This document shows positions 13,732 to 31,803 of a stretch of DNA of 35,005 bases, in pieces. This stretch comes from an uncultured Anaerobiospirillum sp. (lineage in GTDB: Bacteria > Pseudomonadota > Gammaproteobacteria > Enterobacterales > Succinivibrionaceae). Location of the stretch: positions 1 through 35,005 of the forward strand of contig CALXOW010000030.1 in NCBI GenBank assembly GCA_944390115.1, read 5' to 3'. The position numbers were made by a program, and so were the translations under genes. Each line of letters starts with the position of its first letter. The first letter of the stretch is position 1. The notes beneath the pieces were generated by a model. It saw only the letters and a list, made by a program, of their open reading frames with translations, was not told where the DNA came from and ran no database searches.

Positions 13732-15810
13732 CTACTTGCGGTTACGTGCGGCCTTGCGCTGCTTGCGGACTTCCTTGTTGTGCTTGCGGCGCGACTCCTT
13801 TTGCTTGAGCGCTCGGCGCTGTGCTAACTCAGCCCTTGCGGCCTCACGGTCGCGCAGCAAGGAGTCATCGATGGCCACTTGGTAGCGCCCATTAGGGTCC
13901 ACCACCCACTTCTGATTAGGATCATTCCATGCGTTGGCAGCCTGAGCCGATGGTGTGCTCTGAGCGTCAGCGGGAGCCTGAGGATCACCCTTGGTGCCTA
14001 CTGAAGCCTCACTGAGGACTGCGCTGTCAGCAGCGGCTTCAGCATCAGCGCCCAAAGCATCGTCCGAAGCAACAGTCTCGAGGTTAAGCTCGGTGGTAGC
14101 CGACGTCAGGTCGGTTGCGGTCGACAACAGCTCGGTAGTGACTGGCGTCTGCGCAGCTGCGTTCGACGTTGCTTGCTGCGGTGCAGCCGGAGCCTGAGGG
14201 TTAAACTCAGTGCCGTCTGGAGCCTCACTGAGGACTGCGCTGTCAGCAGCGGCTTCAGCATCAGCGCCCAAAGCATCGTCCGAAGCAACAGTCTCGAGGT
14301 TAAGCTCGGTGGTAGTCGGCGTCAGGTCGGCAGCGGTCGACGACAGCTCGGTAGTGACTGGCGTCTGCGCAGCTTCGTTCGACGTTACTTGCTGTGGGGC
14401 AGCCTGAGCCTGAGGGTTAAACTCAGTACCGTCTGGAGTCTTACTGAGGACTGCGCTTTCAGCTGCGGCTTCAGCATCAGCGTCCAAAGCATCGTTCGAA
14501 GCAGCAGCCTCGAGGTTAAGCTTGGAGGCGACTGGCTTCAGCTCAGTGGCAACTGGCGTCAGGTCGGTAGTGGTCGACGACAGCTCGGTAGTGACTGGTG
14601 TCTGTGCAGCAACGTTCGGAGTCGTTTGCTGAGGTGCGGCCTGAGTCTGCGGTGTGGCTTGAGCCTGCGGGGCTGCGCGCTTAGCCTGGGCGGCATTACG
14701 ATTAGCCTGGGCGGCATTACGCTTAGCGCTGGCATTCTTATCCGCACTCTGCTTTAACGCAACCTTCTTCAGCGTTGACTTCTTGGTCTTAGGGACGATC
14801 ATGAGCGCTTGCAGGCGCTTGCGCAGATCGCCACCGGCGGCCTCGAACTCCTTTGGATGAATCAGGAAATCAATGCCTGCCTCTTGAATCATATGCTGGC
14901 CCAGCTCAATGAGCGCAGCGATCAGATCTTTTGAGCTCAGCGTGAGCAGCCCTTTCACCATTTCCATGCAGTCGTGGAGCTTGCTCGATTGGCAGTCGCT
15001 CAAGATCCTGATGAGATCCTTGAGCACCAGACGAAATGGCTCAGGGAGCAAGGCGCAGCGCTCGCTTAAGGCGGCAATGCAGTCGTTGGCATCCTTGACC
15101 TTAGGGCGCGCTGGCACCTCACCCTCGTAGAGGGCAAGTTGAGCTTTTACCGGATCGGTCCAAGCCTCATTGGCTTCGGCAATGAAGTCCTGCCAAACCT
15201 GCAACTTATAGTTGTGCGCCAAGTCCAGAATGTGGCGCGGAGTCATGCGCTCTAAGAGAACGCGCGTGCGCTGATGATCCTCGCGGCCTAAGCCGTTAGG
15301 GGCCATAAAGTAGTTAAGCAGCTGATCGACATAGTCCTCGCGCTTAGCAGGCTTGAGAACTTCGACCTGCAAGGTCAAAAGCAAGGCCTCATCGCGCGTG
15401 GCAGGCTTGAACACAATGCGCGTGATCTTGCCCTGTTCGTCGGTGACTTCTTGGACGCGCTCTGAGCGCATGCACTTGACTAAGTAGTTGACTTGGCTGG
15501 CGGAGGATGGAACGAAGCTGAAGACCTTTTCGCGCTCAGCTTCAGTTGGCTGCGGGACGGCTTCGCGCCCGGCGCTTACCGGATAGTAACGAGCTGCGGC
15601 GCCATGGGTCGCGTGACCTTGGCACTTGAGCTTGTGGAGCTTACGGCGCATTGCCCGCGTTAAGGCCAGCTCATCAGTTGAGGCCAGCTCATTAGTTGAG
15701 GCAGGCTTCGTATCGATGCTGTCCTTAGGTGGTAAGTCGGTTGGCGCAAGTTCGGGCGCTTGCGCTGGGGTCGTGGCGCTCAGGGCGTCTGGGATCGGAT
15801 TGGGATTCAC
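13732..15810 (-). CDS. Unknown 692-residue repeat protein with basic C-terminal tail, last gene of the trb block
   Basis: I do not recognise this protein. Start GTG 15810 has AAGGAG 5 bases upstream. There is no signal peptide. Residues about 85-345 look helical and globular (DYVDQLLNYFMAPNGL, CMEMVKGLLTLSSKDL). Residues 350-400 are Ala/Gln/Lys/Arg rich. Then come three tandem repeats of 72-79 residues rich in Thr, Ala, Asp and Glu (VTTELSSTATDLT, DALGADAEAAADSAVLSEA). The end is strongly basic (RRKHNKEVRKQRKAARNRK). It follows trbL by 31 bases and is absent from the RP4 set. A basic C terminus is a feature of some type IV secretion substrates, so a secreted or apparatus-associated protein is a hypothesis only. 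Confidence 0.7.
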   Translation of the reverse strand: MNPNPIPDALSATTPAQAPELAPTDLPPKDSIDTKPASTNELASTDELALTRAMRRKLHKLKCQGHATHGAAARYYPVSAGREAVPQPTEAEREKVFSFVPSSASQVNYLVKCMRSERVQEVTDEQGKITRIVFKPATRDEALLLTLQVEVLKPAKREDYVDQLLNYFMAPNGLGREDHQRTRVLLERMTPRHILDLAHNYKLQVWQDFIAEANEAWTDPVKAQLALYEGEVPARPKVKDANDCIAALSERCALLPEPFRLVLKDLIRILSDCQSSKLHDCMEMVKGLLTLSSKDLIAALIELGQHMIQEAGIDFLIHPKEFEAAGGDLRKRLQALMIVPKTKKSTLKKVALKQSADKNASAKRNAAQANRNAAQAKRAAPQAQATPQTQAAPQQTTPNVAAQTPVTTELSSTTTDLTPVATELKPVASKLNLEAAASNDALDADAEAAAESAVLSKTPDGTEFNPQAQAAPQQVTSNEAAQTPVTTELSSTAADLTPTTTELNLETVASDDALGADAEAAADSAVLSEAPDGTEFNPQAPAAPQQATSNAAAQTPVTTELLSTATDLTSATTELNLETVASDDALGADAEAAADSAVLSEASVGTKGDPQAPADAQSTPSAQAANAWNDPNQKWVVDPNGRYQVAIDDSLLRDREAARAELAQRRALKQKESRRKHNKEVRKQRKAARNRK
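13975..14595 (-). repeat. Tandem 216-bp coding repeats in the 692-residue protein
   Basis: Units begin at 14595, 14358 and 14142 on the minus strand. The first is 237 bp (an extra 7 codons), the second 216 bp, and the third diverges at its end. The second and third are nearly identical over long stretches, including silent positions, indicating recent duplication. Confidence 0.85.
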
Positions 15811-15841
15811 ATCTTCTCCTTATGATTACGTTTGTTGTAAG

Positions 15842-16768
15842 TTAGGCTCTTAAGAAAGTGCGCAGGCTTGGGTAGAGGTTGGTCGAGTGGGTAGTGCAGG
15901 TGTTGCTGACTAGGCTTGCCACCATATTGGGCATGCTTACCGCCAGGCCCACAATCAAGAACATCACCGAGAGCAAGAGCCCCAAGTACTGCAAACTGAT
16001 GGTGGCATTGGCCTCATTGATCGCATTGAGATCGGTGAAGATGCCATTTAAGACGCGCGTACCAATGGTATAGATCAGGCACAAGGTAAAGAGCTTGAGA
16101 CCGTAGGCTAGGGTGTGAAAGAGGTAGTGCAGGGAAATGGAGCGGGTGAAGCCAAACACACCCAGTACCACCACTAAGACACCGCACACCGCATTGAAGT
16201 AGGCGTTGAGATAGGTCACGGCAAAGATGACGGTCAAAAGCGCCACCAAGCCGTGAATCAAGATAAAGCTGAGTAGAGCCATGAGCGAGGCGGTGCTGAT
16301 GCCTAGGTCGGGCTCGACTAAATTGCGCAGCAATTCGCTTTGCGCTAAAAAGTCTGAGATGACGAAGAGCTGGCTGACCCCATCAAATTTTTCGCCGCTG
16401 CCAGCGATGGGGTGGTCAAGTGCCAGGCTAATTAAGGAATTGACGATATCGGTCGAAATGGCCGGGCCATTGAAGATGAGAAAGTAGACCGCGCCCACCG
16501 TGAACATCAGGCGTACCATGTTGTAGCAAAAGAGCTTGATTTCTCCTTGGAGCAAGATGAGCTTGATGCCCGTGGTGACAAAGGCAAAGGATGCGAGGTA
16601 AAAGAGCAGGTCGCGGCAAAAGTTGATGACGCGCGTTTGAATCTGGGCAAATTCATAGCGATAGAGCTCAACCACGTAGTCCATAGTGAAGACCGGTTGC
16701 ACTTCCGCAGCCTGGGCGCTGGCCCAGCTTGCGGCCCAGCATAAGAGCAGAAAGATGACAGGACGCAT
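15842..16768 (-). CDS. trbL: TrbL, polytopic inner-membrane T4SS protein (VirB6 type)
   Basis: A 308-residue hydrophobic protein. ATG 16768 is preferred over the GTG three bases before it because GGAGG then lies 6 bases upstream. A cleavable-looking signal (IFLLLCWAASWASAQAAE) is followed by about six membrane helices, including LLFYLASFAFVTTGIKLILL and LGLLLSVMFLIVGLAVSMPN. The ending VASLVSNTCTT is like P-type TrbL. The family forms part of the inner-membrane channel of the type IV secretion complex. It directly follows trbJ with an 18-base gap, so the entry-exclusion gene trbK that sits here in RP4 is absent. Confidence 0.83.
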   Translation of the reverse strand: MRPVIFLLLCWAASWASAQAAEVQPVFTMDYVVELYRYEFAQIQTRVINFCRDLLFYLASFAFVTTGIKLILLQGEIKLFCYNMVRLMFTVGAVYFLIFNGPAISTDIVNSLISLALDHPIAGSGEKFDGVSQLFVISDFLAQSELLRNLVEPDLGISTASLMALLSFILIHGLVALLTVIFAVTYLNAYFNAVCGVLVVVLGVFGFTRSISLHYLFHTLAYGLKLFTLCLIYTIGTRVLNGIFTDLNAINEANATISLQYLGLLLSVMFLIVGLAVSMPNMVASLVSNTCTTHSTNLYPSLRTFLRA

Positions 16769-16786
16769 CACACACCTCCGTGATGG

Positions 16787-17569
16787 TTAGTAAGGCCAGC
16801 GATACTCAATTTCCGGTAAGAACGCAGGCAGCCCCCGCTGACGTACTGGGCTGGTTTTAAGCAGCGCTTCATCGCGCGCGGCACTGCTGCGCTTTTGGCT
16901 ATTGGCACGGGCGATTTCATGGCTTTGCAGCCGAGTCATCAGGGCTACTTGGGAATTGAGATCAACTAAGGATGAGGCCACGGAGCCGTTGATCTTGCTT
17001 AAGGCATCCAAGGTCCCGGCGGCGCTGGTGGAGTCTTGGCTTTCGCGACTTAAGCTTTGCAGTTCCTGCACTTGGTGCTCAAGGCGCGCACTCATGGCTT
17101 CAGCATGGCGATAGGCCGTAAGGGCTTGCTCGATCGCTTCGTCATCGAGCTTTTTGACTACTTGGGCAAAGGTGCAGCGCGTACCGGAGTTAAAGCACTC
17201 CTCCCAAGCGTTAGCCTTATAAAAGGATGAGAGGTATTGCCCCACTGAACCAAATTCCTCCCACGCGGACTTGGTGGCATGCAAGAGCACCAGGGAATCC
17301 TCTTGGAGCGCGTTGATTTGCTCCCAGGTGCCCTTAAAGTCCATGGCATAGTTCTGATCCATCAGGTTCTGAGTGCCTTGGGCGATGTCGTTACCGACAT
17401 TAAGCGAGCTTAATTGGTCGGCTTGGGCTAAGTTGTCACGGGCCCATTGATCGAGATACAAGATGCGGTGCAGGATGTTCTCGGTCAAGGCAGCCGCATC
17501 AAAGACCGGGAAGGCAGCGCCCGGCAGGGCCAGGGCGCACAGTAGCAGCGCTAAACACAGACGCTTCAT
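16787..17569 (-). CDS. trbJ: TrbJ, periplasmic pilus-assembly protein (VirB5 type)
   Basis: A 260-residue protein with signal peptide MKRLCLALLLCALALPGAAF (about residues 1-19). The body is mostly helical, with coiled-coil stretches (LEHQVQELQSLSRESQD) and the two-Cys segment WEECFNSGTRCTF. It opens after the signal as FPVFDAAALTENILH, close to the usual P-type TrbJ beginning (VFDPANFAQN-like). VirB5/TrbJ proteins reside in the periplasm and at the pilus tip. AGGAG precedes the ATG. The gene lies between the 443-residue unknown gene and trbL. The length is near the family norm. Confidence 0.82.
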   Translation of the reverse strand: MKRLCLALLLCALALPGAAFPVFDAAALTENILHRILYLDQWARDNLAQADQLSSLNVGNDIAQGTQNLMDQNYAMDFKGTWEQINALQEDSLVLLHATKSAWEEFGSVGQYLSSFYKANAWEECFNSGTRCTFAQVVKKLDDEAIEQALTAYRHAEAMSARLEHQVQELQSLSRESQDSTSAAGTLDALSKINGSVASSLVDLNSQVALMTRLQSHEIARANSQKRSSAARDEALLKTSPVRQRGLPAFLPEIEYRWPY

Positions 17570-17584
17570 GAAGTACTCCTTAGG

Positions 17585-18916
17585 TTAAATGTCAAGTACG
17601 GCCTCGTCCCAGCTGCGCAGCTTGTAGGTGAACGGCGTATTGCGCAGCAGGGCGTCGTGACAATCTTGGGCGTGGACGTAGCTCGAGAGCGCCAATAAGT
17701 CCAAGACGGTGTTAGGCACCAAGGCCCCCAAAATGCGCTTGCTGCAGGATTTATTGTTCTCAGGGGTATCGCGCGCGGTGAGCTCAGGGTAGGCGCTCAC
17801 GACATTAAAGCCGTATTGCTTCAGGGCCACGGTGGTACGTAGCACGCTGTGCGCAATAATGCTTTCGGGGTGGCGCAGGGCGTAGACCGCCATGCACATG
17901 TCGTAACACTGCAGCACCAGGCGCCGCTGGATCAGGACGCTACTCCAAGCGCGATCGGCGTTGATCGGCCAGAGCTTGGGGCCCTTGAGCTCGAGCGCTC
18001 TTTTCAGCTGCGCTAAGTGCTGGGAGAAAGGCTCAAGCTCAGTCTCAATCACGTCTGGGATCTGATAGTGCAGCAGGGTGTAATTGCTCAGGCGGCTGAA
18101 GCGGTTAACTCCGGTGACGATGGGCTGCGGTAATTCATTGACGTCAATGAAATTAAGGCAGTGCTCCAGGCGCAGGTAGGTGGAGCTTAAGGCCTTGAGC
18201 TGAACCCGCACGAGCGGCGAGGTCAGAAGAGGTCCTGAGTGCTGCGTTTCAGCGGCCTTAAGTAAAGGCAGGCCTAAGCAGGCATGCAGCGCCCATGGGG
18301 CTTCATGGGGCTGGCCTAAGGCGCGCGGGCTGTTCTGATGCCCCCGACTTTTGCGCTTTAAGCCTTGCTGCCATTGCAAGTGAGCCAAGATGAGCAAATG
18401 CGCGGCTGGATTGCGCTGGAGGCAGGCGTGTACCTCTGGGCCAAACTGATCGAGCCAATTGCTGGCAACTTTGCCTAACTGGGCTTGGTACAGCTTAACC
18501 TGCTGGGTGCACTCCTGCAGAAAGTCAAAGTCAGGACAAGGTGGCTGGGCAAAGAGCACGTGGGCCTGGGCGCGCACAAAGGCGGCGGCCTTGATGTAGA
18601 AATCGATGTAGTTAGGGTACATCTTATACTCTGGGGCTAGGCCCGCCACCAGAGCCAAGGCTGGGCGCACCCCCGCCAGCGGATCATAGCTGCGGTAGCT
18701 GCGCGGATAGAGCTCTAAGAGCAGCTTAAGGGGTACGCCGCTGGGGGTGTGCAATTGCCAAGGCTGAGCCGGGCTGGCAGGCGTGCTCGGGAGCGCTGGA
18801 GCCTCAGTAGGCTGAGGTGCTACCTGTGCCTTAATCAGCGGTAGGGTGGTGTTAAGGCGCAGGGGCTCAGGTAGGAGCGCAGGGGCGGGCGCAAGCGGAG
18901 TCTCAATAGCTAACAT
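17585..18916 (-). CDS. Unknown 443-residue protein inserted between trbI and trbJ
   Basis: Not recognised. AGGAGG lies 5 bases before the ATG and the gene fits the operon spacing (9 bases after trbI, 15 before trbJ), so it is clearly translated. Residues 1-50 are Pro/Ala rich (ALLPEPLRLNTTLPLIKAQV). The rest looks helical and soluble, with a conserved-looking core (LEHCLNFIDVNELPQPI, WSSVLIQRRLVLQCYDMCMA). There is no signal peptide, membrane helix or nucleotide-binding motif, so a cytosolic location is likely. RP4 has no gene at this point in trbI-trbJ. It may be an apparatus accessory, a chaperone or a substrate; the sequence does not tell which. Confidence 0.7.
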   Translation of the reverse strand: MLAIETPLAPAPALLPEPLRLNTTLPLIKAQVAPQPTEAPALPSTPASPAQPWQLHTPSGVPLKLLLELYPRSYRSYDPLAGVRPALALVAGLAPEYKMYPNYIDFYIKAAAFVRAQAHVLFAQPPCPDFDFLQECTQQVKLYQAQLGKVASNWLDQFGPEVHACLQRNPAAHLLILAHLQWQQGLKRKSRGHQNSPRALGQPHEAPWALHACLGLPLLKAAETQHSGPLLTSPLVRVQLKALSSTYLRLEHCLNFIDVNELPQPIVTGVNRFSRLSNYTLLHYQIPDVIETELEPFSQHLAQLKRALELKGPKLWPINADRAWSSVLIQRRLVLQCYDMCMAVYALRHPESIIAHSVLRTTVALKQYGFNVVSAYPELTARDTPENNKSCSKRILGALVPNTVLDLLALSSYVHAQDCHDALLRNTPFTYKLRSWDEAVLDI

Positions 18917-18925
18917 AGGAACCTC

Positions 18926-20215
18926 CTAAAAACCGAAGTTCGGTTGTTGCTCGTAGTCGTAACCGCGATACGGGCCATCAAAGTAGATGTCTTGGGTTAA
19001 GGTGACGTTGAAGAGAAAGCCGGGGGCTACCGTCAGGGTCGGGGACACGCTCAAATTGCGTTCAATCACCGTGGTGATCACCCGCCCTAAGGACTGGCCC
19101 ATGCCTTGGCTTAAGGCGCCGTTTAAGGTGAGGCGTCCTTCTTCGTCGTAGGCGTCGTTATCAACCGCCAAGGACACACCAGCCGTGACGCCGCCTAGGA
19201 GCACGGCGTTACTAAAGAGGCGCCACATGTGGTTGTCGACTTCAGCGGAAAATCCAGCAAAGCCATCGAGGCTGGCACCGGGCATAGAGCCTAATGACAG
19301 GGCCTTACCGTCAGGGAAAATGACGCGGTTAAAGCCCAGCATGACGCGCTCTTGGCCCATCAGCGGGGCCGAAGCATATTGGCCGATGATCTTGGAGCCC
19401 TTAGGAATGAGCACATGGCGCCCATAGGGGGTATCAAAGACATCGCTCGTGACCTGGGCCTGGACTTGACCGGGCAGATCGGAGTTGACACCGCTTAGCA
19501 AGACACAAGGAATGAGCACGCCTTGGCGCAGTAAGTAAGGGGAGAGGACGCTCTCGACCTTTTCCTTGAGCAAGGTAGCCCCACCCTTTAAGCGCTCATA
19601 GGCGGCCAAAGTCTTAGGGTTGCCGGTACTGCCGCCCGCCAGGTTCTTAAGCTTAGTGACCCCATCTTGAGCTAAAGCAGATTGCAGCGTAGTGCGCTCG
19701 GAAGCCTCAACCTGGGTGGTCGCACTGCCCTGAGGAATGGCCGCCAGGGCTTGTGGGGCAGCCGTGTCGACAGCGGTGCTGGCCTTTAAGGCAGCCACTA
19801 AGGCTTGGGCGCGACTTTGCGCTAAGGCATCTTGAGCGGCCTCAAGGGGTGACACCTTCTCAGGCTCTGGCGCAGGCTTAGCTTCAGTGAGCTCTTGGTA
19901 GCGCTCATAGTCAGCCCGAAAATCTGAACTGCGCTCTGGAGGCTCAGCGAGCTCCTCGAGCTCATAGACTAGGGGCTGGTACTTTTCTTCCTCAGCCCCG
20001 GCGCGCTCGAGGCGAGCGACCGCCAGCATCGGGCGCATGGCGTCGAGGCTTAACGGCTCGCTTGTTGCCGTGCCTTGCGCCTCATAGGCGGCTTGGCGTT
20101 GCATCATCACGGTGATGCCGACCACCAACAAGGCTAAAAGCACGCCCAAGACCAAGATTAGGACCAAACGCCCCCGAACACGTCCGGAGCGTACCACTTG
20201 ATTGACTCGTTCCAT
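18926..20215 (-). CDS. trbI: TrbI, envelope-spanning T4SS scaffold (VirB10 type)
   Basis: A 429-residue protein. One membrane helix near the N terminus (LVLILVLGVLLALLVVGITV, about 17-37) is followed by a proline/acidic periplasmic linker and the conserved VirB10/TrbI beta-barrel domain: LIPCVLLSGVNSDLPGQVQA, DVFDTPYGRHVLIPKGSKII, FNRVIFPDGKALSLG and VAPGFLFNVTLTQDIYF. TrbI couples inner and outer membrane parts of the channel. The start codon follows the trbH-like stop by 2 bases with GGAGG 7 bases upstream, so the two genes are probably translationally coupled. Length and domain order are normal for P-type TrbI. Confidence 0.93.
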   Translation of the reverse strand: MERVNQVVRSGRVRGRLVLILVLGVLLALLVVGITVMMQRQAAYEAQGTATSEPLSLDAMRPMLAVARLERAGAEEEKYQPLVYELEELAEPPERSSDFRADYERYQELTEAKPAPEPEKVSPLEAAQDALAQSRAQALVAALKASTAVDTAAPQALAAIPQGSATTQVEASERTTLQSALAQDGVTKLKNLAGGSTGNPKTLAAYERLKGGATLLKEKVESVLSPYLLRQGVLIPCVLLSGVNSDLPGQVQAQVTSDVFDTPYGRHVLIPKGSKIIGQYASAPLMGQERVMLGFNRVIFPDGKALSLGSMPGASLDGFAGFSAEVDNHMWRLFSNAVLLGGVTAGVSLAVDNDAYDEEGRLTLNGALSQGMGQSLGRVITTVIERNLSVSPTLTVAPGFLFNVTLTQDIYFDGPYRGYDYEQQPNFGF

Positions 20216-20217
20216 CG

Positions 20218-21528
20218 TTAGTCCTCCGTAGGCTTAAACGGACCGCTGGCAAAGACCGCGCTGGTGCTGCCGCCGTCGTTACCTGGACGCGGCTGCGTGG
20301 TCTGAGGCTCACTTAAGGCCCCCAGTACGCGCTGGGAGCTGGAGCTTAGGACGCGAGCGGCATTTAAGGCAGTAGGCAGCTTGTTCTCACCTGAGCCCAG
20401 GTTGCGCATACTGGTAGCAGCGTTGGTTGCAGCCCCTTGAATCGTGTTCAATGTGGACCCAGTATTAGGGCTGACGCTACCTAAGGTCGCGCCCAGGGTG
20501 CCTTGGAGCTGGGAACTACCCAGTGAGCCTTGGGGCGCCATCCGCTGGAGATTGATAAAGGCAGCATCGGCGCGGCGCAGAGCTTCAGCTTGGAGCTTGC
20601 GGCGCTCACTTTCACTCGGGACGTCTAACTCTTGGGTGCGCTGATTCATGGCCTGAGTGAGCGCACCGTGCGCGGCGGCCTTGCCTTGTGGGGCAGGCGT
20701 ACCTTGTGGTGCGGGCGCTCGGTGAGCGGTAGTTGGAGCAGCCTTGGTTGTGCTGGTCTTAGGTGCCGTACTTTGAGGTGCAGCGTTCTTGGTCGCAGCG
20801 GCCTTGGTCGGGGCGACCTTGTTCGCGGTCAAGATCGCGATCGTCTTGCCCTTGGGGGTAGGTTCGTACTTAGGCTTAGGGCTTGCCTTGGTCTTAGAGT
20901 TCGACTTGGGCTGGGCACGGGTCACCTTATTTTGCTTAGTGCGGGTCTGAGCGGAAGTTGGGACTTGCTCCAGGGCATCTGGGCTTAAGGCGTGCGGAGT
21001 CAGGGACTGCTTTTGGAGCAGGCTTAAGTCATAGAGCGGGGCACGGCTTGCTTGGATGCTCAAGGCACTAAGCGGGGTTAAGCTCGTGCGCTCATAGAGG
21101 CGCTGGAGCGTCAGCTCCGGGGTCTTGAGCTCGACCAAGACGTAGGCGGCGTCATCAGGACTTAACATCGTGGTGGTGATGTAGGTCGGATTGAGTCCCT
21201 GGCAGTGGGCACTGCTGGTGCAGCTGCTGGCACCGCTGTGGCGTAACGCTGCGCTCAGGGCTGCAAGCTCGGGACTAAAGCCGGAGATGGCGGCACTGTC
21301 GTCAGGCTCTTGGTGCGCTTGCACTTTGGCATAGTCCTCGGGACTTAAGGGCAAGAAGGTGGTGGTGCCTAAGGCGTAGTAGGAGCCTACGACCGGCATC
21401 AGATCTTGGTAGATGGGGTCGAGAGCGATTTGAGGGGCCTCAGGCTTGGGGCTTAACATCGCCTCTAGCGACTGACAGCCGGTTAGGCTTGCCACAAACA
21501 GGACGGTGGCTAACAGTAGAGTGCGCAT
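20218..21528 (-). CDS. trbH: TrbH-like outer-membrane lipoprotein with long basic linker
   Basis: A 436-residue protein with a lipoprotein signal: hydrophobic run and lipobox SLTGC, lipidated Cys18. It occupies the trbH position between trbG and trbI. Residues 25-170 appear folded (DDAAYVLVELKTPELTLQRL). Residues about 185-300 are a low-complexity linker rich in Lys, Ala, Pro and Thr (KSNSKTKASPKPKYEPTPKG). The tail is Gly/Ser/Asn rich. RP4 TrbH is much shorter (about 160 residues), so assignment rests on position and lipobox rather than clear similarity. A VirB7-like role in the outer-membrane core is inferred. AGGAGG precedes the ATG. Confidence 0.6.
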   Translation of the reverse strand: MRTLLLATVLFVASLTGCQSLEAMLSPKPEAPQIALDPIYQDLMPVVGSYYALGTTTFLPLSPEDYAKVQAHQEPDDSAAISGFSPELAALSAALRHSGASSCTSSAHCQGLNPTYITTTMLSPDDAAYVLVELKTPELTLQRLYERTSLTPLSALSIQASRAPLYDLSLLQKQSLTPHALSPDALEQVPTSAQTRTKQNKVTRAQPKSNSKTKASPKPKYEPTPKGKTIAILTANKVAPTKAAATKNAAPQSTAPKTSTTKAAPTTAHRAPAPQGTPAPQGKAAAHGALTQAMNQRTQELDVPSESERRKLQAEALRRADAAFINLQRMAPQGSLGSSQLQGTLGATLGSVSPNTGSTLNTIQGAATNAATSMRNLGSGENKLPTALNAARVLSSSSQRVLGALSEPQTTQPRPGNDGGSTSAVFASGPFKPTED

Positions 21529-21539
21529 AGAACCTCCTC

Positions 21540-22508
21540 TTAGTGTTCTTGAGCCATGAGTTCGATATCGGCGCGTAAGGCCGAGCGATCGGCGCTGCTA
21601 CCTAAGAGCAGGCGCAGGTGCGTAGGTAGGCCGTCAATGACAAAGCTGGTACCGACCACGCGGTAGTTGATAAGACCCATGCCGCTATCGGACCCAGAAC
21701 CCATGGCATTGCCGCCTTCGTTGACCATGACGAGGGCCGGGAGGCGCGCGCCGGTGGCCATGAGCTTGGTTGGCATCTGGATAAAGGTCTGGCGCCCGTC
21801 ATTGAAGACGCGCAGCGGATAGAGCGCCTCGTCGCCCGAGAGCTCATAGTTGAAGTTGAGCTGCTCGAGGAGCATAGAGCCACCGGCCTGACCGGTTTGC
21901 GGGGCACCGGCAAAGGCGCGGGCTTGCTGGGCGCGGCTGAGCTCAGCCTTGAGGCTGTGGTAGCGCTCTAACGTGGCCTCGGGATAGATAAAGGACACCT
22001 GGGGCATGAACTCGGCGGCGGTCGACTTAAGATCCAGGTAGTAGGTGCGCTTGTCGGTGTAGATGCGCAGATTGGTATTAAGGCCGATGTCGGTCGGCTT
22101 TAAAGCGATATGCTCGACAATCGCGCCTTCGTGCCCACTGACCGAACGCTCGATGAGCCAGCGCGCGCCATCGCCGATCTTGAGGTCCAGCACGTTTTCG
22201 CCTGGCTCCATGGCGATGTCGCACACGTGCAAGAGGGAGCACACCACCATAGGGCGCGAGGCGCCGTAGATAAAGCGCACTTCGTTCGGGCCGGTGATCA
22301 CTGGCTTGGTGCTGGCTCCCTTAGCGCCCCGTTGATTGCTTTGCTCTAAGGCCTTAAGCACGGCGCGCTCTTGGGGCGTGAGCACTTGGCGTGCGGCTTG
22401 GTCCGGACTTAAGGCCAGCAGTTGCTCTAAGGCCGCATCGGCCTGGGCGCTGGGTCCTAGTTGCGCCAGGAGCAGCGCGGTCGCGAGGGTACAGATAGTA
22501 CGGTTCAT
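21540..22508 (-). CDS. trbG: TrbG, outer-membrane core T4SS protein (VirB9 type)
   Basis: A 322-residue protein with a signal peptide (ICTLATALLLAQLGPSAQADA, cleavage near 23-24). The VirB9/CagX domain follows: VRFIYGASRPMVVCSLLHVC, LQ-like segment ENVLDLKIGDGARWLIE, LRIYTDKRTYYLDLKS and the C-terminal stretch ALYPLRVFNDGRQTFIQMP, GLPTHLRLLLG. With TrbI and TrbH it would build the outer-membrane ring. The start has AGGAG about 11 bases upstream. Length and domain order are as expected for P-type TrbG (about 300-330). Confidence 0.92.
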   Translation of the reverse strand: MNRTICTLATALLLAQLGPSAQADAALEQLLALSPDQAARQVLTPQERAVLKALEQSNQRGAKGASTKPVITGPNEVRFIYGASRPMVVCSLLHVCDIAMEPGENVLDLKIGDGARWLIERSVSGHEGAIVEHIALKPTDIGLNTNLRIYTDKRTYYLDLKSTAAEFMPQVSFIYPEATLERYHSLKAELSRAQQARAFAGAPQTGQAGGSMLLEQLNFNYELSGDEALYPLRVFNDGRQTFIQMPTKLMATGARLPALVMVNEGGNAMGSGSDSGMGLINYRVVGTSFVIDGLPTHLRLLLGSSADRSALRADIELMAQEH

Positions 22509-22558
22509 AGTAAGAAAATCTCCTCTAGAAAGGCGCGGCGGGCGCGCCTTAATGGGGC

Positions 22559-23935
22559 TTAGGCCATGACGTCCGAGACCACAAACTCGGTGACGATAAG
22601 ACCTAAGGGGTTGAGTAAGAGCAGGCGCTCTGAGCCTTCGGCCGTGCCCTGGGTGAGCGCGCTGTCCTGTTCAAAGGACACCAAGGCGCGCATAGTGCGC
22701 TCATAGCTTTCCGCAGGAGCGCTGATTGTGGAGTCAGCCGCGCCTGCGTGGCTTTGCTCGCGCCAATCGATTTGCAGGGTGTGCTCACCGGTGGCGATGA
22801 CATTGAGAATGTCCACGCTGACGGCGTAAGGCGCCTTATTGCTCAAGGGGTTATGGGCGTTAAAGTAGGCGTCCAGGTCAAAGAAGACCTTGGAGTTGGG
22901 CGCTACTAAGGCGTAAGCCTTGGTCATCAGCTCGCGTTGGAGCGTCTTATCAGGCGTCACCATGCGCACATTGCGCACAAAGTCCGAGAGCTCGGCGGCG
23001 ACCAAGGCAGGCGTGAGCGCCTCTGAAGCCGGGGTTAAGGGGCCGCGATTTAAGACCACGCCTTGGCGATCGACCGTCACGACGTAGGGTTGCAGCGCCG
23101 GGCGGCTGCTTTGGGCGATGAGGGCGGCCAGGCAGAAAAAGGACAGTGCCAGAGAGCCAAAGCTAAAGAGGACCCAGGTTAAGTGCGAGCGCAGGCCATT
23201 TAACATGACCTCACTGCGCTTTAAGCCTAGGGTCTTGCTCAGGCTTAAGTCCTCTAAGGCCGCTGCGCGGGCTTGGCGGTTTAGGACCTGCGTGCCATTG
23301 AGCTCATAAGCCTCCTCATAAAATGAGTTTGTCGGCTGTGGTGTCAGGTCCTTAGGGCCAGGGCCGCTGTCATCGTTCTCAGCGGCTGCATCCAGCGCAT
23401 TTAAGATCGCGCTCTCCTCGCGCGGGTCGAGGTCGGTGGCCACGATTTCGCGGTCGCACAGGGGCGGGCGCTGGCTGGCGCGGCGCGCATCACTGACCGG
23501 GTCGCCCAAGGTAAATTCCTCAGCCCACAGGCTGACTTCTTGGGTCGTGGTGCGCTTAACGAAGTGGCGGCGCGCCGCTAGGACATCGTTGAGCACACAG
23601 TCATTGGGCTCGGGACATGGTGCCGCTTGGGGATTTGCGGGCGGCACCTGTTGGGGCTTAGCCTCGGGCACCAGACCCTCTGGCGCCGGGGCAAGCTCCG
23701 GCTGGAGTTCCTGGGCGGGCTCTGGGGCCTGCTGGAGCGTATCGCCTTGCAACAGACGCTTGAGCTCTGGGGATTGCTCGGGGAGCGGACTTGGCTGAGG
23801 GCGCTTGCCCGCTTGCAGCTCATCGCTTTCGGCGTCTAACAGCTCCAGCTCAGCTTCGGATAAGCCGGTCGGATCTTCTAAGCAATATGGAGGGTCGCTT
23901 AAAGCGTCGTGGGGATTTAATGGAAGGCGTGGCAT
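22559..23935 (-). CDS. trbF: TrbF (VirB8 type) with a 200-residue N-terminal extension
   Basis: A 458-residue protein in which the family part begins near residue 203 (NSFYEEAYELNGTQVLNRQA). A membrane helix at about 252-274 (TWVLFSFGSLALSFFCLAAL) is followed by the periplasmic VirB8-like domain (LQPYVVTVDRQGVVLNRG, then RALVSFEQD and NPLGLIVTEFVVSD). P-type TrbF is normally about 230-260 residues. The extra 200 residues are Pro/Glu/Gln rich and acidic (PEPAQELQPELAPAPEGLVP) and would lie in the cytosol. GAGGT lies 5-6 bases before the ATG, so the extension is probably translated. VirB8 proteins organise the inner-membrane complex. Confidence 0.85.
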   Translation of the reverse strand: MPRLPLNPHDALSDPPYCLEDPTGLSEAELELLDAESDELQAGKRPQPSPLPEQSPELKRLLQGDTLQQAPEPAQELQPELAPAPEGLVPEAKPQQVPPANPQAAPCPEPNDCVLNDVLAARRHFVKRTTTQEVSLWAEEFTLGDPVSDARRASQRPPLCDREIVATDLDPREESAILNALDAAAENDDSGPGPKDLTPQPTNSFYEEAYELNGTQVLNRQARAAALEDLSLSKTLGLKRSEVMLNGLRSHLTWVLFSFGSLALSFFCLAALIAQSSRPALQPYVVTVDRQGVVLNRGPLTPASEALTPALVAAELSDFVRNVRMVTPDKTLQRELMTKAYALVAPNSKVFFDLDAYFNAHNPLSNKAPYAVSVDILNVIATGEHTLQIDWREQSHAGAADSTISAPAESYERTMRALVSFEQDSALTQGTAEGSERLLLLNPLGLIVTEFVVSDVMA

Positions 23936-24011
23936 ATTTACCTCTGTTCTGGTGGGTGCGGGGCACGTGGATTAAGCCGTGGGTGGTTTAGTCCACGTGA
24001 CCGCAGGTGGT

Positions 24012-26666
24012 TTAGGCCGCGTGAGCGCCGAGGTGGTGGTAGAACTCGGGCCCAAATTGGGCGTAGAGCTCGTCAACCTGGGCACAGTTGTGGTCACCGG
24101 CAATGGACAAAAGCTGGAGCTCCTGGGGCGGCAAAATCAGATTGACCATGATGCGTTCGGTCCCCTTGATGAAGTAGTAATCGCGCTTAGGGGTCGCGTG
24201 GACTAAGCCTTCGATTTCATTGGGGCTTAAGCCCATCACTTGGTAGGTGTCCTTTAAGGCGGCACTGGCGGCGTCGCAGTTAGCCAAGAAGAAGCGGGTC
24301 TTGGCGCAATCGAGCAGGTTTTCAAAGAAGCTCGATTGCTTTAAGTCCGCTAAGCTTTGGGTCGCTAAGATCACCGCGACATTGAACTTACGTAAGGTCT
24401 TGAACCACTTGAGCAATTCGTCGGCAAAGACTGGGTCTTGCAGCATGAGCCAGGCTTCGTCTAAGACGATGGCCGCCGGGCGCCCATCAAATTGCTGCTC
24501 GATTAAGTGGAAGATCTGCTTTAACACCGGCACGGCAAAGGCAGGCGAGCTCGAGAAGATCTCGGCGCACTCAAAAGTGGTGAGGGCGCGCGTGCCAATC
24601 TCCAAGTTGCTGGTGCCATCAAGCAGGGCACTGCGGGCCGCGCCCACTTGGGTCGAACCTGTTGGTGCATTTGCTGTTGCTGCGGCCTCAGGTTGCTCAG
24701 CGCCCAACTGCTCGGCCACCAATTGCTGCGAGAGTGACTTGAGGTCACCGCCCATGGTGGTGTACGCGGCCAAGGCGGTGCGAATCTCCGGGCGCTGGGT
24801 CGTGATGTAGAACTCACTTAAGGAGCGGCGATTCTTGGGTTGGCTCGAGAGCAAGTTGATGCAGGTGATGATTTCGTTGCGCAGCTCTGGGGTGATGGTG
24901 ACGGAGCTCAGGCGCAGCAAGGTCTCGACAAAGGACACGGCGTAATCGCGCTGTAAGTCGCTCTCAAGGTCATAAAGAGGGCACAGCTGGGCGCGCTCAT
25001 TGTTAAAGGTCAAATGGGTGCCTTCAAGCGCGCGGGTTAAGGCGTAGAAGGAGTAGCCCTTATCAAAGGCAAAGATACGCATGCCCTGATAGCGTAAGAG
25101 ATTGAGCATGAGCTCGCCTAAGAGCACCGACTTGCCTGAGCCGGTCGGTCCAATCACCAAGGTGTGGCCGATGTCGTGGGCGTGCAGATTCAATAGGTAA
25201 TTGCTCGCGCCCTTGGCTCGCACCTGCATTAAAGGCGAGCGCGTGGTGCCCATCATAGGGTTAGGGCAATAGGCCTCGCCGGGCAGCGACTGTTGCAGCG
25301 GCAAAAGGTCGAGCACTACGTCTTGTGAGACGATCGGACGGCGCAGATTCTCGTAGTAGTGGCCTGGTAAGCTGCCTAAATAGGCATCGGTGGCGTTGAT
25401 CGACTCGACTCTACCGATTAAGCCGGTGCGCTCAATGGCCTGCAGCGCGGCGCGCGTGTATTGGGCTAACACCTTGGGATCATCATGGTAGATGAGTAAG
25501 GTGGCGCAATAGGCCCCAAAGACCACTTCGTTGTTGTCGAGGGCGCGCTTGGCCTTATCTAAATCTGCGATCTGGTCTAAAGCGTTTTGGTTGAGCCGGG
25601 CCTCAGGCAGATTGAAGAGTTGGGCGAAGAGACCCTTGCTCTTTTGGGCCCAAAAGCGGCGGTACTTGCCGAGCAAAAAGGTGCTCTTGAGCTGGTCAAA
25701 GTAGATAAAGCGCGTGTTGAAGCGATAAGGGAAGGGCAGCAGGCCTAAGGCATTTAAAAATCCGGGCTCACTCATCTGCGGCAGTCCCTCTAAGGCGATG
25801 ACGCTCACGTAGTTGGGGCCAATCTTCGGCATAAAGCCGTGGATAAAGTCTTGATTGCCGAGCACGGCATCAAGGTAGAGTGGCACTTGTGGCGTCCGTA
25901 CCTTTTGATAGTGGCCGCTGATGCACTCTTGGATATGGCTTAAACCGGCGTGGTAGGTAAAGTCGCCCTCAGCGCAGTACTCACTGCCAAGGGGCTTAAC
26001 CTTAAAGCACAGCTCCAAGGTCGAAATGACCGAGGCGCAGGCCAGTTCAAATTCGTGGACCAAGGCGCGGCTTTGGTTGAGGTCGCTGTCAGGTTGCGCG
26101 CTGAGATTGCCTTGCAGCTGCTCAGGGGCATGATCCGGCTTGGTAATGAGGCGCTCTAAGTGCTGGGCCTTATGATCGGTGCCCAGGTAGGTGATAGTGA
26201 GCACTAAGCGCGAGCGCAGGCCCGGATGCTGCGCACAGTACAAGACGCGTGCGTCTTCAAGCTCTTGGAGCACTTGGTGTGTGCTCCCGCAGGTCCCAGC
26301 ATCAGCTTCGAGCTCAGGGTAATAGGCCTCATCGCGATTGCGGATGAGATCGACGTGGATGCAGTAATTGCCTACGAGCTTGAGCAAGGCCTTTTGCGCC
26401 AGCTCGTAGGTCAGGGCGACTTGTGCCTCACTCATCAGCCCTAAATCGGGCGGCGTGAGCTCATAAAGTGACATCAGGCCGCCTGACTTGAGCACAATGA
26501 CATGGTCGTTTGCTTGCGTGGCGTAATCCAAAAGGTCGCAGGTGGCAGGCAGATCCGGGCAGCGCTGCGCCCACAGTCCCGAGCGCTTAATGGTGGTGAT
26601 GACCCCGGCGACACAGGCCACCCCCATGGTGGCGCATAGGCCAAAGAGGATGCTCAATGTAGTCAT
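24012..26666 (-). CDS. trbE: TrbE, T4SS assembly ATPase (VirB4 type)
   Basis: An 884-residue ATPase that powers pilus assembly and substrate transfer. A short hydrophobic N terminus (LFGLCATMGVACVAGVITTI) may touch the membrane. The N-terminal VirB4 domain follows, then Walker A GPTGSGKSVLL (from 506), Walker B AAIVLDEAWLML and the family's AVILATQSLADL motif. Length is close to RP4 TrbE (about 850). A low-complexity insert (EQPEAAATANAPTGS) interrupts the ATPase domain. SD GAGGAG is close to the ATG. It is the largest gene of the cluster and its motifs are intact, arguing against decay. Confidence 0.94.
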   Translation of the reverse strand: MTTLSILFGLCATMGVACVAGVITTIKRSGLWAQRCPDLPATCDLLDYATQANDHVIVLKSGGLMSLYELTPPDLGLMSEAQVALTYELAQKALLKLVGNYCIHVDLIRNRDEAYYPELEADAGTCGSTHQVLQELEDARVLYCAQHPGLRSRLVLTITYLGTDHKAQHLERLITKPDHAPEQLQGNLSAQPDSDLNQSRALVHEFELACASVISTLELCFKVKPLGSEYCAEGDFTYHAGLSHIQECISGHYQKVRTPQVPLYLDAVLGNQDFIHGFMPKIGPNYVSVIALEGLPQMSEPGFLNALGLLPFPYRFNTRFIYFDQLKSTFLLGKYRRFWAQKSKGLFAQLFNLPEARLNQNALDQIADLDKAKRALDNNEVVFGAYCATLLIYHDDPKVLAQYTRAALQAIERTGLIGRVESINATDAYLGSLPGHYYENLRRPIVSQDVVLDLLPLQQSLPGEAYCPNPMMGTTRSPLMQVRAKGASNYLLNLHAHDIGHTLVIGPTGSGKSVLLGELMLNLLRYQGMRIFAFDKGYSFYALTRALEGTHLTFNNERAQLCPLYDLESDLQRDYAVSFVETLLRLSSVTITPELRNEIITCINLLSSQPKNRRSLSEFYITTQRPEIRTALAAYTTMGGDLKSLSQQLVAEQLGAEQPEAAATANAPTGSTQVGAARSALLDGTSNLEIGTRALTTFECAEIFSSSPAFAVPVLKQIFHLIEQQFDGRPAAIVLDEAWLMLQDPVFADELLKWFKTLRKFNVAVILATQSLADLKQSSFFENLLDCAKTRFFLANCDAASAALKDTYQVMGLSPNEIEGLVHATPKRDYYFIKGTERIMVNLILPPQELQLLSIAGDHNCAQVDELYAQFGPEFYHHLGAHAA

Positions 26667-26723
26667 AATGACTCCTCAGAAAGCCTAGGCCTTACGCGGC
26701 CTAGGCACAATTTAAGGGCTGGA

Positions 26724-27428
26724 CTAATAGCGTTTACGCGGCGGCAAGCCAATGCGTGCTTGCGCGAGGTAGTAATGCTGGTAGTGCAGCTGCCGAATAA
26801 AGACGTGGCGTAAGAGCAAGTCACGCTTACCCATTTGGTGGAGTCCCAAGAACAACAGGAGTGCGACCGGCGTCGTGATCGCAAAGACCACCAAGCTGTG
26901 AGACAAGAAGATGAGGGCGGCGGCGACCAAGAGATTGATTAAGAACAACTCACGGTCACAGCCCAGCATCTGGTTGCTATTACCCAAGGCATGGTAGATG
27001 CGATGCTTGGGCAGCGTGCACGGGCTACTGCCTTTGAGCGCGGCGCTTGGGCCCAAGCCCTCGGGGGCCTCCTGCCCCCTGTGCGCCTGGACTTCCTGCC
27101 CCGCCTGAGCCGCTTGTCCTGCCTGAGCCTCAGGCTTCCCCTGAGCCGTCGGTTCGGGCTGAGCCTCCTGCCATGGCGCAGCCTCTTGGCTGAGCGTGCG
27201 CTCCTGCTGTGGCAGGCTCTCCGGTTCCACTTGCACCTGTGCTAGCGTGGCGTCATCGTCACCGCAGGTTCCAGCGTCAGCTGAACGTAGAGGTTGAGTT
27301 GCCACAGCGGGTGTTGACAGGGCTTCGTGGGATGACGGATGCTCAGGCAAATCGGGTGGAGTGTCCCGTACACTGTGGGCAGCGCGTCCTCCTCGTCCCA
27401 AGAGCCGAGCGATGATGCTAAGTGCCAT
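26724..27428 (-). CDS. trbD: TrbD (VirB3 type) with a 130-residue N-terminal extension
   Basis: A 234-residue protein. The family part is residues about 138-234: HRIYHALGNSNQMLGCDREL, two membrane helices (FLINLLVAAALIFLS and LVVFAITTPVALLLFLG) and a basic tail (LAQARIGLPPRKRY). P-type TrbD/VirB3 is normally about 90-105 residues. The extra N-terminal segment is acidic, Pro/Gln/Glu/Ala rich (QEAAPWQEAQPEPTAQGKPE) and would be cytosolic. GAGGAGG lies about 10 bases before the ATG at 27428, so the extension looks genuine; internal starts near residue 138 are lacking. VirB3 works with VirB4 in the inner membrane. Confidence 0.85.
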   Translation of the reverse strand: MALSIIARLLGRGGRAAHSVRDTPPDLPEHPSSHEALSTPAVATQPLRSADAGTCGDDDATLAQVQVEPESLPQQERTLSQEAAPWQEAQPEPTAQGKPEAQAGQAAQAGQEVQAHRGQEAPEGLGPSAALKGSSPCTLPKHRIYHALGNSNQMLGCDRELFLINLLVAAALIFLSHSLVVFAITTPVALLLFLGLHQMGKRDLLLRHVFIRQLHYQHYYLAQARIGLPPRKRY

Positions 27429-27446
27429 GACACTACGTCCTCCTCA

Positions 27447-28460
27447 TTAGCGCTGGGCTAAGTGGTACGGCTGAGGCAGGTACTCGCTTGGCTCTTGCTC
27501 CTCAATCAAGACCGCCCCCTCAAAGTTAGCTTCCTCTAAGCTGCGGGCAATCTCGTCCCACGGGACTTCTTGGTAGCTATCGAAGTCGGAGCGATCTAAG
27601 TCGTAGAGCGCCATAATCTCGGGGATAAAGACCGTCTCCTGGCGCTGCTTATTGAGGACGTGCGCTGGGTCAGTCTGCTCCTTAGAGACCACGTTCTGCG
27701 AGGTCGCTTCGTTCTCGGGCATAGGAATGGCGGCACCGTTGAAGAAGTTGCTCATCAGCGAGTTGGCGCCGATAAGTAAGGTCATCACTAAGACGATATA
27801 GACCATCGTGCGGGCAAAGCCTCGGATCTCACCGCCACCTAGGATGAGCGTGATACCGCTGACCACGATGCCGATAAGCGAGATGGCAAAGGCCACCGGT
27901 CCAGTTAAGGACTTTTGAAAGTCCGACAGCCACGACTCATACGGCAGCGCCGTGCCCGCGCTGGTATCGGCGGCCCAGGCAGGTTGCAGGTACAAGCCTA
28001 AAAAGCACAGCACTAAGACGGCTGCGCAGGTGAGGCTCAGGCGCAAGAACCACGGCATACTGCTCGAAGCTGCCGGGGCCTCAAGTCCCGAGAGCTCGGA
28101 CTGAGTCGCCAAAGGCGCGGCCGTGCTGGTGCCCGCAAGCGAAGCGAGCTTAGGCAGACGCGCAGCGTCCTGGACCGTACTGTCCCCTGCGCTGTCCTGA
28201 GCAGCGTTCTGAGCTGCGTTGTCCGCTACCGCACCCTGTGCCACCTCGTCAGAGGCGCTGACGAAGGGCTCGTCCTCATAATGAGTGACGGTGGCATCAA
28301 CGGAGAAGTCGCGGGCCCATGGCTCGGCACGCTCCGGGCTTGGAGCGCAGCCTAAGACCTCATCGCGCAACCAGTTGTAGTTGAGCATGGTCTGCAGCGC
28401 ATCAAAGGAGGAGACGGAGGCCTGAGCCTCAGGCCAAGTAGGTGTTATAAGTTGAGACAT
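27447..28460 (-). CDS. trbC: TrbC pilin (VirB2 type) with long N- and C-terminal extensions
   Basis: A 337-residue protein containing a canonical P-type pilin: signal-like segment [20 protein letters not shown] (from 135) with cleavage after AWA (163). The mature part then reads [37 protein letters not shown] and [18 protein letters not shown]. This closely resembles RP4 TrbC, which is only about 145 residues. Residues 1-134 precede the signal and are acidic and Ala/Gln rich; about 90 acidic residues follow the pilin core. ATG 28460 has GAGGA 8 bases upstream and is preferred over ATG 28583, which overlaps trbB and lacks an SD. Met135 (28058) could give a normal prepilin but has no visible SD. 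The TraF-type cyclase is not in the window. Confidence 0.85.
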
Positions 28461-28563
28461 GACAAGATCCTCAAGGGTTAAAAGAGGCTTGGGCTCTCGG
28501 TAAGAATGCGCCCAAGCTATAGGGTGAGCCGGGGTCCATTGGGACGCGACGGCTTGCCTCCGG

Positions 28564-29766
28564 CTAAGCGACGCGGCGTTCATGGGCGCGGCGCTGCTCT
28601 AAGGCGGCGGCTAAATCGGTGGTTACGGGAATGAGGGCAAAGTGCCCGTTCTGGTAGCCGGCGCAGACGGCGATGTCCGTGACTTGGCGCGTCAGGTCCA
28701 CGCGCTCGGTTTGCACGATGAGGTCGATGGCGCTGGCGACCATGGGCTCAATCTGGCGCGGGCAGCTGGGGTTGCGCGACACCAGTAAGGTCAGGCGTTG
28801 CAGTGCTTGCTCCGGTGACCCCGCGTGAATGGTGGCCAGGCCGCCTCGGTGGCCGGTGGTCAGGGCGTCGACCAAATCTAGGGCCTCCGGGCCTCGTACT
28901 TCGCCCACCACAATGCGATCGGGGCGCAGGCGCAGGGCTGAGCGCAGCAAGGTGGAAAGCTCAACCTTGCCATTGCCCACTAAGTGGACGTAATTGCCCG
29001 GCAGACTCGAGAGCTCCTTGGTGTCCTCAATGGAGATCACGCGCTCTTGCGGCTGCGTGAGGCTCAGCTCATTGAGCAGGGTGTCAACCAAGGTGGTCTT
29101 ACCTGAGCCGGTCGCACCTGAAATCAGAATTGAGAGGTGCTGGTCTAAGGCTGAGCGCAGAATCTGAGCTTGCACCGAAGTGAGCGTGCTCAGGGCCACT
29201 AAGTCCTCTAAGGTATGGCTTTGGTCTTGGTGACGGCGAATGGCGAAGACCGGAGCGCTGACCAAGGGCGGTAATAGGCCTTCAAAGCGGGCGTTATGGG
29301 CGCTGATATCACCCGACAAAATCGGGCAAGCGCAGCTGAGGTCTTGCCCCAGCAAGGTGGCCAAGGCGCGCATCGCGTTTTGCGCCGCTGCTGCGCTCAT
29401 GGTGCCTAAGTGGCACATGCCATACTGCTTGTGCTCGACCATGAGTTCACCTGAGTCATTGAGCATGATCTCGGTGATCTCAGGCTCGTTGAAGGCACTG
29501 CTGACCGCCCGGCCAAATAATCGCTCAATGAGCGGATCGCGGCTAGCGTCAGGCTCAAAGACCAATTGCTTGCTGCTGCCCGTTTGGTTTAAAGCGCAGG
29601 CTAAAACCGTTGGGCCTTCAGGCGCCGCTTTCTGCTGAGTGGGTGCAGGGCGGCTGGCAGTTGCCTGGGACAAAGCGGCACGGCGCGTGGTAATGGCGTT
29701 GAGGGCGGCGCTGAGCGCGATGGGCGCTTCAGGCGCGGGGTGCAGCGGGAAATCTGAAAGTATCAT
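28564..29766 (-). CDS. trbB: TrbB, hexameric T4SS traffic ATPase (VirB11 type)
   Basis: A 400-residue cytosolic ATPase. Walker A GATGSGKT lies at 217-224, the Asp box ISIEDTKEL near 245, Walker B IVVGEVRG near 285-292 and the His box [13 protein letters not shown] at 304-316. Together these define the VirB11/TrbB family. The first 65 residues are an Ala/Pro-rich lead-in. ATG 29766 with GAGG 6 bases upstream is preferred to the GTG at 29790. It is the first gene of the trb block, as in RP4, and the promoter should lie in the AT-rich gap before it. Confidence 0.94.
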
Positions 29767-31727: not shown

Positions 31728-31761
31728 GGCTCAGGCCCTTAAGGGCTAGGTTTTAATGAAA

Positions 31762-31789: not shown

Positions 31790-31803
31790 CTATCTGGCGT
31801 GTC

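Follow-up and report, generated by a model that had tools for sequence, protein, structure and literature searches.

The window considered here is a 35,005-nucleotide stretch of DNA from an uncultured Anaerobiospirillum sp. and comprises the entire contig C30 of its assembly (G000; 3.64 Mb, 123 contigs, 92.9% complete). Both of its ends are contig ends, and content beyond them is not readable from the window itself. Its central feature is an operon on the minus strand, trbB-C-D-E-F-G-H-I-[orfX]-J-L, in which all reading frames are open and homologues of VirB4, VirB11, VirB3, VirB6, VirB8, VirB9 and VirB10 stand together with a pilin in a single operon. The operon is a real P-type channel (RP4 Trb, MPF_T) of a type IV secretion system (T4SS), and it is considered below together with a possible partner, the coupling protein TraD, which is encoded at a second locus in most relatives. 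The features of the locus, with their profile matches, are as follows.

28564..29790, minus strand: trbB, VirB11-type ATPase (TIGR02782, 285 bits, E 6.9e-85, below the cut-off of 304.55; T2SSE, E 3.4e-38, over the cut-off; Walker A)
27447..28583, minus strand: trbC, pilin (PF04956, E 3e-15; NF010467, E 7.6e-34; core at about residues 184-296)
26724..27428, minus strand: trbD, VirB3-like (NF010395, E 6.2e-16; PF05101, E 3.7e-5; low-complexity N-terminal extension of about 138 aa)
24012..26666, minus strand: trbE, VirB4-type ATPase (NF010466, E 1.9e-156; PF03135, over the cut-off)
22559..23935, minus strand: trbF, VirB8-like (PF04335, E 2.2e-24; low-complexity N-terminal extension of about 249 aa)
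21540..22508, minus strand: trbG, VirB9-like (TIGR02775, E 3.3e-55, above the cut-off)
20218..21528, minus strand: candidate trbH-like lipoprotein gene (by position and a lipobox-like N-terminus, LTGC; no T4SS profile match)
18926..20215, minus strand: trbI, VirB10-like (PF03743, E 5.1e-54)
17585..18916, minus strand: orfX, 443 aa, between trbI and trbJ (no Pfam or NCBIfam match)
16787..17569, minus strand: trbJ, VirB5-like (by position; TIGR02780, 22.8 bits, E 5.3e-5, and PF07996, 17.4 bits, E 0.006, both below the cut-off)
15842..16771, minus strand: trbL, VirB6-like (PF04610, E 9.9e-13, over the cut-off; TIGR02783, E 3.1e-25)
13732..15810, minus strand: orfY, 692 aa, after trbL (member of a dispersed paralogue family)
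30957..35003, plus strand: flanking cpoB, tamA and tamB, the last cut by the contig end (TPR, Omp85 and TamB profiles)
9143..12785: flanking genes on the other side, presumably nadE (plus strand; named from its sequence, not by a profile scan) and a major facilitator superfamily (MFS) transporter gene (minus strand; by Pfam)

The preliminary description of the window had reported complete trbBCDEFGHI, J and L in the order of RP4, whose trb genes serve here as the reference. All of these genes are indeed present and open, but orfX is inserted between trbI and trbJ, and the naming of two genes is less firm: the trbJ profile match is weak and trbH has no T4SS profile match, the other trb genes being backed by profiles. 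The ATPase motifs described earlier are preserved, the translations containing the Walker A sequences GATGSGKTT in TrbB and GPTGSGKS in TrbE, and trbE is the sole PF03135 match in the G000 genome. The longest open reading frame (ORF) places the start of trbB at 29790, and TrbC carries a long low-complexity N-terminal extension, so that its actual start may lie inside this frame. Lengthened forms of several Trb proteins, and of some TraD proteins, are seen in the genus Anaerobiospirillum.

The family sample comprised 35 genomes (G000-G034), assigned to the Succinivibrionaceae by the titles of named relatives, and a comparison set outside the family comprised 24. Eleven of the 35 form genus g1, Anaerobiospirillum: besides G000 these are A. 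succiniciproducens DSM 6400 (G006), NML120448 (G005), NML120449 (G007), Candidatus A. pullistercoris (G001), A. pullicola (G002), A. stercoravium (G010) and the uncultured bins G003, G004, G008 and G009. TrbE was found in all 11 genus genomes and, at E <= 0.001, in 33 of the 35 family genomes (28 strongly), with weak matches in two of the 24 genomes outside. In the TrbE tree, 23 family rows (the 11 Anaerobiospirillum and 12 others from genera g2, g3, g7, g9, g12, g13 and g14) are split by a 100/100 branch of length 1.73 from seven rows of the integrative and conjugative element (ICE) type, namely G015, G017, G029, G030, G033, Janthinobacterium and Pseudoduganella. In G015 and G017 the contigs bearing the Trb loci also carry MOBP relaxases and coupling proteins of the TraG type, and the term ICE-type applies to G029, G030 and G033 by clade placement only. 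Plasmid TrbE proteins are at most 34.4% identical to that of the window among the 15 records listed, and all 4,569 matching records lie below 60%.

Earlier work on the window had noted housekeeping genes on both sides of the operon, nadE and MFS on one and cpoB, tamA and tamB on the other, and this setting recurs in relatives. The trb operon adjoins cpoB and/or the MFS gene in seven of the nine other genus genomes with a readable flank (G001-G004, G007-G009), both flanks being visible in G007, G008 and G009 only, while the G010 contig carries trb alone. Outside the genus the lone operon likewise adjoins housekeeping-type genes, at a different site each time: lpxK, a cytidylyltransferase and a class I tRNA synthetase in G012, DJ-1 and SrfB in G024, and a dicarboxylate symporter in G028. 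A TnpB/Cas12f-like zinc-ribbon fragment lies beside the operon of G031 (L081, 19687-19965). Synonymous divergence (dS) from G003 is 0.43-0.53 for trbB-E, as compared to 0.51 for cpoB, 0.33 for tamA and 0.54 for tamB. The dN/dS ratio (omega) is 0.087 and 0.153 for trbE and 0.105 and 0.221 for trbB, ranges over 0.09-0.41 for trbB-E, and is 0.12-0.31 for the trb genes against G009. The operon is thus under purifying selection, as had been surmised.

Genes for DNA transfer are absent from the immediate surroundings, again in agreement with the first account. Of the 22 window ORFs of at least 200 aa, 20 (all except nadE and glgX) were scanned with Pfam, and none proved to be a relaxase, an integrase or a coupling protein in its own right; the only match to the coupling-protein profile PF10412 among them was a cross-match of TrbE through its P-loop (23.5 bits, cut-off 20.5). 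TrbC is matured in P-type systems by a TraF-type peptidase, none of which was seen among the scanned window proteins, no whole-genome search having been aimed at it. There is no tRNA and no Rfam match in the window, and no direct repeat of at least 24 nt flanks the operon within 11400-31000, a search blind to shorter attachment (att) repeats. Searches with PF02534 (coupling protein), PF03432 (relaxase) and TraC covered G000-G021; in the whole G000 genome they returned neither PF02534 nor PF03432, other relaxase families not being searched there. Relaxase, coupling protein and VirB4 do not form one cluster at this locus. Nor, within the reach of these searches, does it show an integrase, att repeats and a variable site, its position being shared in seven of nine genus genomes and differing in G005, G006 and outside the genus. 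An ordinary ICE with its other genes just past the window, which the preliminary description had given as the outcome that would refute it, is rejected because the cpoB/MFS flanks recur in relatives and the genome-wide searches gave no PF02534 or PF03432; neighbours common to the genus, a dS like that of the flanks and the lack of detected repeats agree with this. The trb operon, probably descended from an RP4-type mating apparatus, is no longer part of an ICE.

Strong PF02534 matches occur in two of the 16 tested clade genomes (G003, contig C13; G007, contig C1), each on a contig with its own relaxase and VirB4-like match. Weak matches in G001, G002, G006, G008, G018 and G021 are, all but that of G018, TraD itself. 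PF02534 alone would have pointed to the lack of a coupling protein; it was through weak matches in unusually long ORFs that the TraD family was recognised. The frames concerned, of 1,277-2,233 aa, encode TraD of the SXT/TOL type with long low-complexity inserts (three of four by scan, four of four by TIGR03754); such lengths are reached through inserts in some Anaerobiospirillum (L037-L041, L119-L123). TraD is matched in 33 of the 35 family genomes, by TIGR03754 in 20 of 22 (not found in G000 and G004) and by TIGR03743 in 13 of 13 further genomes. F-type TraC exceeds the cut-off in G012, G014-G017, G019 and G020 among the 22 genomes searched, and in none of genus g1.

A tree of 35 family TraDs and one outgroup, from which the TraD of G014 was left out as broken over two frames, has a 100/100 branch separating 20 rows from 19 Trb-clade genomes (L-type, the TraD and TraI going with the Trb-clade genomes) from 11 rows on its other side (N-type), which come from genomes lacking that Trb. 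L-type TraD scores lie below the curated TIGR cut-off except in G028 (366.3 against 366). In G012 and G016, where both types of channel occur, one TraD falls on either side of the branch. L-type TraD occurs in 21 of the 23 clade-Trb genomes and in none of the 12 others (Fisher p 1.1e-7), or by genus in 8/8 against 0/6 (p 3.3e-4), tests that ignore kinship between genomes that are not independent and that enter G014 as non-L-type from an earlier TraD tree. The seven Trb-clade genomes of the second TraD search provided a fresh test, and all seven fitted. Distances of TrbE and L-type TraD are correlated across 21 genomes (Mantel r 0.49; none of 5000 permutations reached this value), moderately so and with disturbance from the TraD inserts. 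In G028, about 240 kb of a single 1.30-Mb contig separates the trb and traD loci. Phylogeny and presence/absence together thus point to a pairing of TraD with Trb. A small ORF of about 180 aa follows TraD in several genomes, the neighbours of L-type TraD otherwise differing between most genomes compared; genes that we take from their sequence to be flagellin-like lie near it in G007, G010, G011 and G018, representing three genera (L116, L123, L124, L134).

Proteins with the relaxase-related profile TraI_2 (PF07514) lie beside TraD in several genomes, among them three L-type partners from different genera (G002, G011, G018). The HH of their 3H region is kept in 10/10 readable N-type TraI and in the three plasmid MobH proteins fetched, in contrast to L-type TraI, where the region is intact in none of 13, reading HD in nine and HN in one and being lost in three (G003, G006, G010). 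The later HD motif is kept in 13/13 readable L-type TraI. These counts exclude G014, which is unreadable, and the doubtful G016C8 row (323 aa), and 14 first picks served to train the TraI model, so that their own scores follow by construction. In the N-type TraI of G019 and G029 (L132, L223), the HH of 3H is kept and the HD motif is lost. The gene is also displaced in places: G010 has a TraI-like gene on a different contig from TraD, and in G003 a piece weakly resembling a MobH N-terminus (E 1e-4, far below the cut-off) lies beyond traD as an ORF of its own. No TraI was found in the stretch fetched around L-type TraD in G001, G005, G007, G009, G022, G023, G026 and G031, several of these contigs being short, and G000 has no match to the TraI-like protein of G003. 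According to a review, 3H and HD are both required for cleavage of the origin of transfer (oriT) by the sole characterised MOBH relaxase (PMC12857230). Site-specific conjugation is probably not the task of the system, since TraI lacks an intact 3H and is displaced, fragmentary or unfound in several Anaerobiospirillum.

orfX, for which the counterpart in G009 is 38% identical at the same position in the operon, has an omega of 0.47 against that genome (0.34 for orfY), and unrelated genes stand between trbI and trbJ in G007 and between trbJ and trbL in G002 and G008; orfX evolves quickly, and what stands at its site varies. orfY encodes a domain of about 290 aa, a low-complexity linker and an Arg/Lys-rich tail, with three tandem 216-nt repeats at window positions 13968-14615, the encoded linker differing in length between paralogues. 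Its family has at least three copies in G000, including those on contigs C49 (90% identical) and C6 (45-48%), and a further one lies near traD in G003 (74%). A basic tail such as RRKHNKEVRKQRKAARNRK ends all three G000 copies, and the signal R-x7-R-x-R-x-R was not found in the tail of orfY. As a tie between the trb and traD loci, orfY was weakened by belonging to a multi-copy family of which the C49 copy is followed by no traD within about 700 bases. Predicted structures were too poor to use (mean predicted local distance difference test score 51.9 for the orfY domain and 39.0 for orfX); the orfY product could be a candidate substrate or a nucleic-acid-binding accessory. Between the MFS gene and orfY, at 13133-13471, lies a HigA-family antitoxin-like gene (TIGR02607, 65.9 bits, above the cut-off) with no recognisable HigB toxin beside it, and positions 3359-4267 encode a DUF3737 protein with a beta-helix match (DUF3737, E 5.4e-101).

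The reading we prefer, with a probability of roughly two in three, is that the trb locus is the channel half of a settled, vertically inherited two-locus T4SS of the Succinivibrionaceae, of RP4-type descent and distinct from an ICE. Such a system would probably not be self-transmissible, and the data suggest that in this family a machine for conjugation came to serve as a resident exporter. Of the functions offered at the outset (protein export, contact killing or a split conjugative element), the split is best supported by the second chromosomal TraD locus of relatives; the idea of a moving element fell away, and in G000 itself the partner was not detected. Protein export stays a candidate function, and nothing observed speaks directly for contact killing. 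In the proposed mechanism, TraD at the inner membrane would select cargo and pass it to the Trb channel, TrbE and TrbB would power the channel, and TrbC and TrbJ would extend from the cell. The cargo, most likely protein or nucleoprotein in the first place and DNA in the second, would be delivered to neighbouring cells or to the medium; protein or nucleoprotein is favoured over conjugative DNA because the L-type 3H is changed and TraI is displaced or unfound.

Several observations sit uneasily with this reading. The operon lies elsewhere in G005 and G006, and its site differs outside the genus, even inside genus g3 (G012 against G024). In G002 the MFS side agrees, but on the trbB side a 546-aa ORF without a match stands where cpoB was expected, followed by the end of contig C102. 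In G006, the locus has trbB and trbE as its sole recognisable trb genes, trbC, trbD and trbF-L going unrecognised, and trbE is followed by a 1,015-aa ORF without a Pfam match and then proQ, a tail-specific protease, an M1 peptidase and dihydroorotate dehydrogenase. Neither TraD nor TraI was detected in G000 by profile or with the proteins of its closest relative, no TraD was detected in G004 with TIGR03754, and no traD begins at the end of G000 contig C49, where one had been hoped for. The two TraD absences could be assembly gaps, since 0.92 absences would be expected among the 11 genomes if TraD were universal in the genus, the chance of at least two being 0.23; they may also represent true loss. 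Co-occurrence of Trb and L-type TraD may reflect one shared ancestral gain instead of a common function, G021 with two L-type TraDs and G013, whose TraD stands without any match to TrbE or TraC, are misfits, and the change from H to D in TraI may keep metal binding, the loss of nicking being a prediction.

The rival that survives best, though it appears unlikely, is DNA release or exchange as in the gonococcal genetic island (GGI), in which TraI and TraD would supply the Trb channel with single-stranded chromosomal DNA for release to the medium or transfer to kin. It gains from the TraI_2 profile of the L-type partners, from the fully kept HD motif and from the arrangement of TraI, TraD and the small following ORF in several genomes, which resembles that described for GGI and SXT (PMC4207684). 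It is opposed by the altered or lost 3H of all 13 L-type TraI and by the lack of a convincing TraI match in the fetched TraD flanks of G005 and G007. Considerably less probable is secretion without a coupling protein, as by Ptl or ComB, in which case the TraD locus would have no part in it and G000 would truly have lost TraD: the absences in G000 and G004 fit this, and T4SSs without VirD4 are noted in the review (PMC12857230), but the distribution of L-type TraD between clade and non-clade genomes speaks against it, with two absences from draft genomes that are compatible with gaps. We would give similarly little credence to TraI-TraD pairs as independent mobilisable elements hijacking Trb, which would account for the differing neighbours of L-type TraD but not for its co-occurrence with the Trb clade, the common branch, the correlated distances or the flagellin-like genes nearby in three genera. 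A recently inserted or decaying ICE with its remaining genes on other contigs is very improbable: all genes are of conjugation type, most trb genes are unrecognised in G006 and the site varies in G005, G006 and other genera, but the neighbour is kept in most of the genus, dS matches the flanks, omega is far below 1, no integrase was found among the scanned window proteins, no tRNA and no flanking repeat of at least 24 nt were found, and plasmid TrbE is distant.

The proposed two-locus T4SS would combine, at the level of gene content and phylogeny, a P-type channel with an SXT-type coupling protein and an altered MOBH protein at two loci, inherited vertically across the family; a literature search, beyond whose reach most subscription papers lay, turned up no paper on it. 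More tentatively, and with rather less than even confidence, it may be a distinct resident class in which a P-type channel took as new partners an SXT-type TraD and a protein of relaxase origin with 3H converted to H-D, and was turned from conjugation to protein or nucleoprotein export between gut bacteria, its halves lying far apart and being co-inherited over at least eight genera. If so, a conjugation machine became a resident chromosomal organelle across a gut-bacterial family, possible intermediates are still visible (H-to-D relaxase, displaced relaxase, no relaxase found), and the family would offer a natural test of the shift of a T4SS from DNA to other cargo.

Among known systems, the operon is closest in gene content and order, trbB to trbL, to the Trb/Tra2 system of RP4 (IncP, MPF_T), with profiles for TrbB, C, D, E, F, G, I and L. 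Unlike RP4, the G000 genome has no detected TraG-type coupling protein or MOBP relaxase, orfX intervenes between trbI and trbJ, TrbC, TrbD and TrbF are extended, the chromosomal neighbours are common to most of the genus, and TrbE is far from the plasmid TrbEs listed (at most 34.4% identity). The Brucella VirB operon lacks a coupling protein, as does that of the window. The partner locus of relatives resembles the TraI-TraD-Yaa module of SXT, TOL and GGI (MOBH, usually with F-type channels) in its SXT_TraD and TOL_TraD profiles, its MOBH-like TraI and its ORF of about 180 aa, and differs in that genus g1 has no F-type TraC above the cut-off, the 3H of L-type TraI is changed and some Anaerobiospirillum TraDs carry large inserts. 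Ptl and ComB, as the review presents them (PMC12857230), share an operon without a coupling protein, but the window, unlike ComB, has TrbB (VirB11), and most relatives, unlike Ptl and ComB, have L-type TraD elsewhere. MOBless chromosomal T4SSs, described as putative protein exporters by Guglielmini et al. (2011, PMC3158045), are alike in having VirB4 without a relaxase in the cluster; here, however, relatives have a coupling protein and an altered relaxase at a second locus, which a 60-gene clustering rule would separate, and two-locus systems of this kind would escape scans that require VirB4 to be clustered with both a coupling protein and a relaxase.

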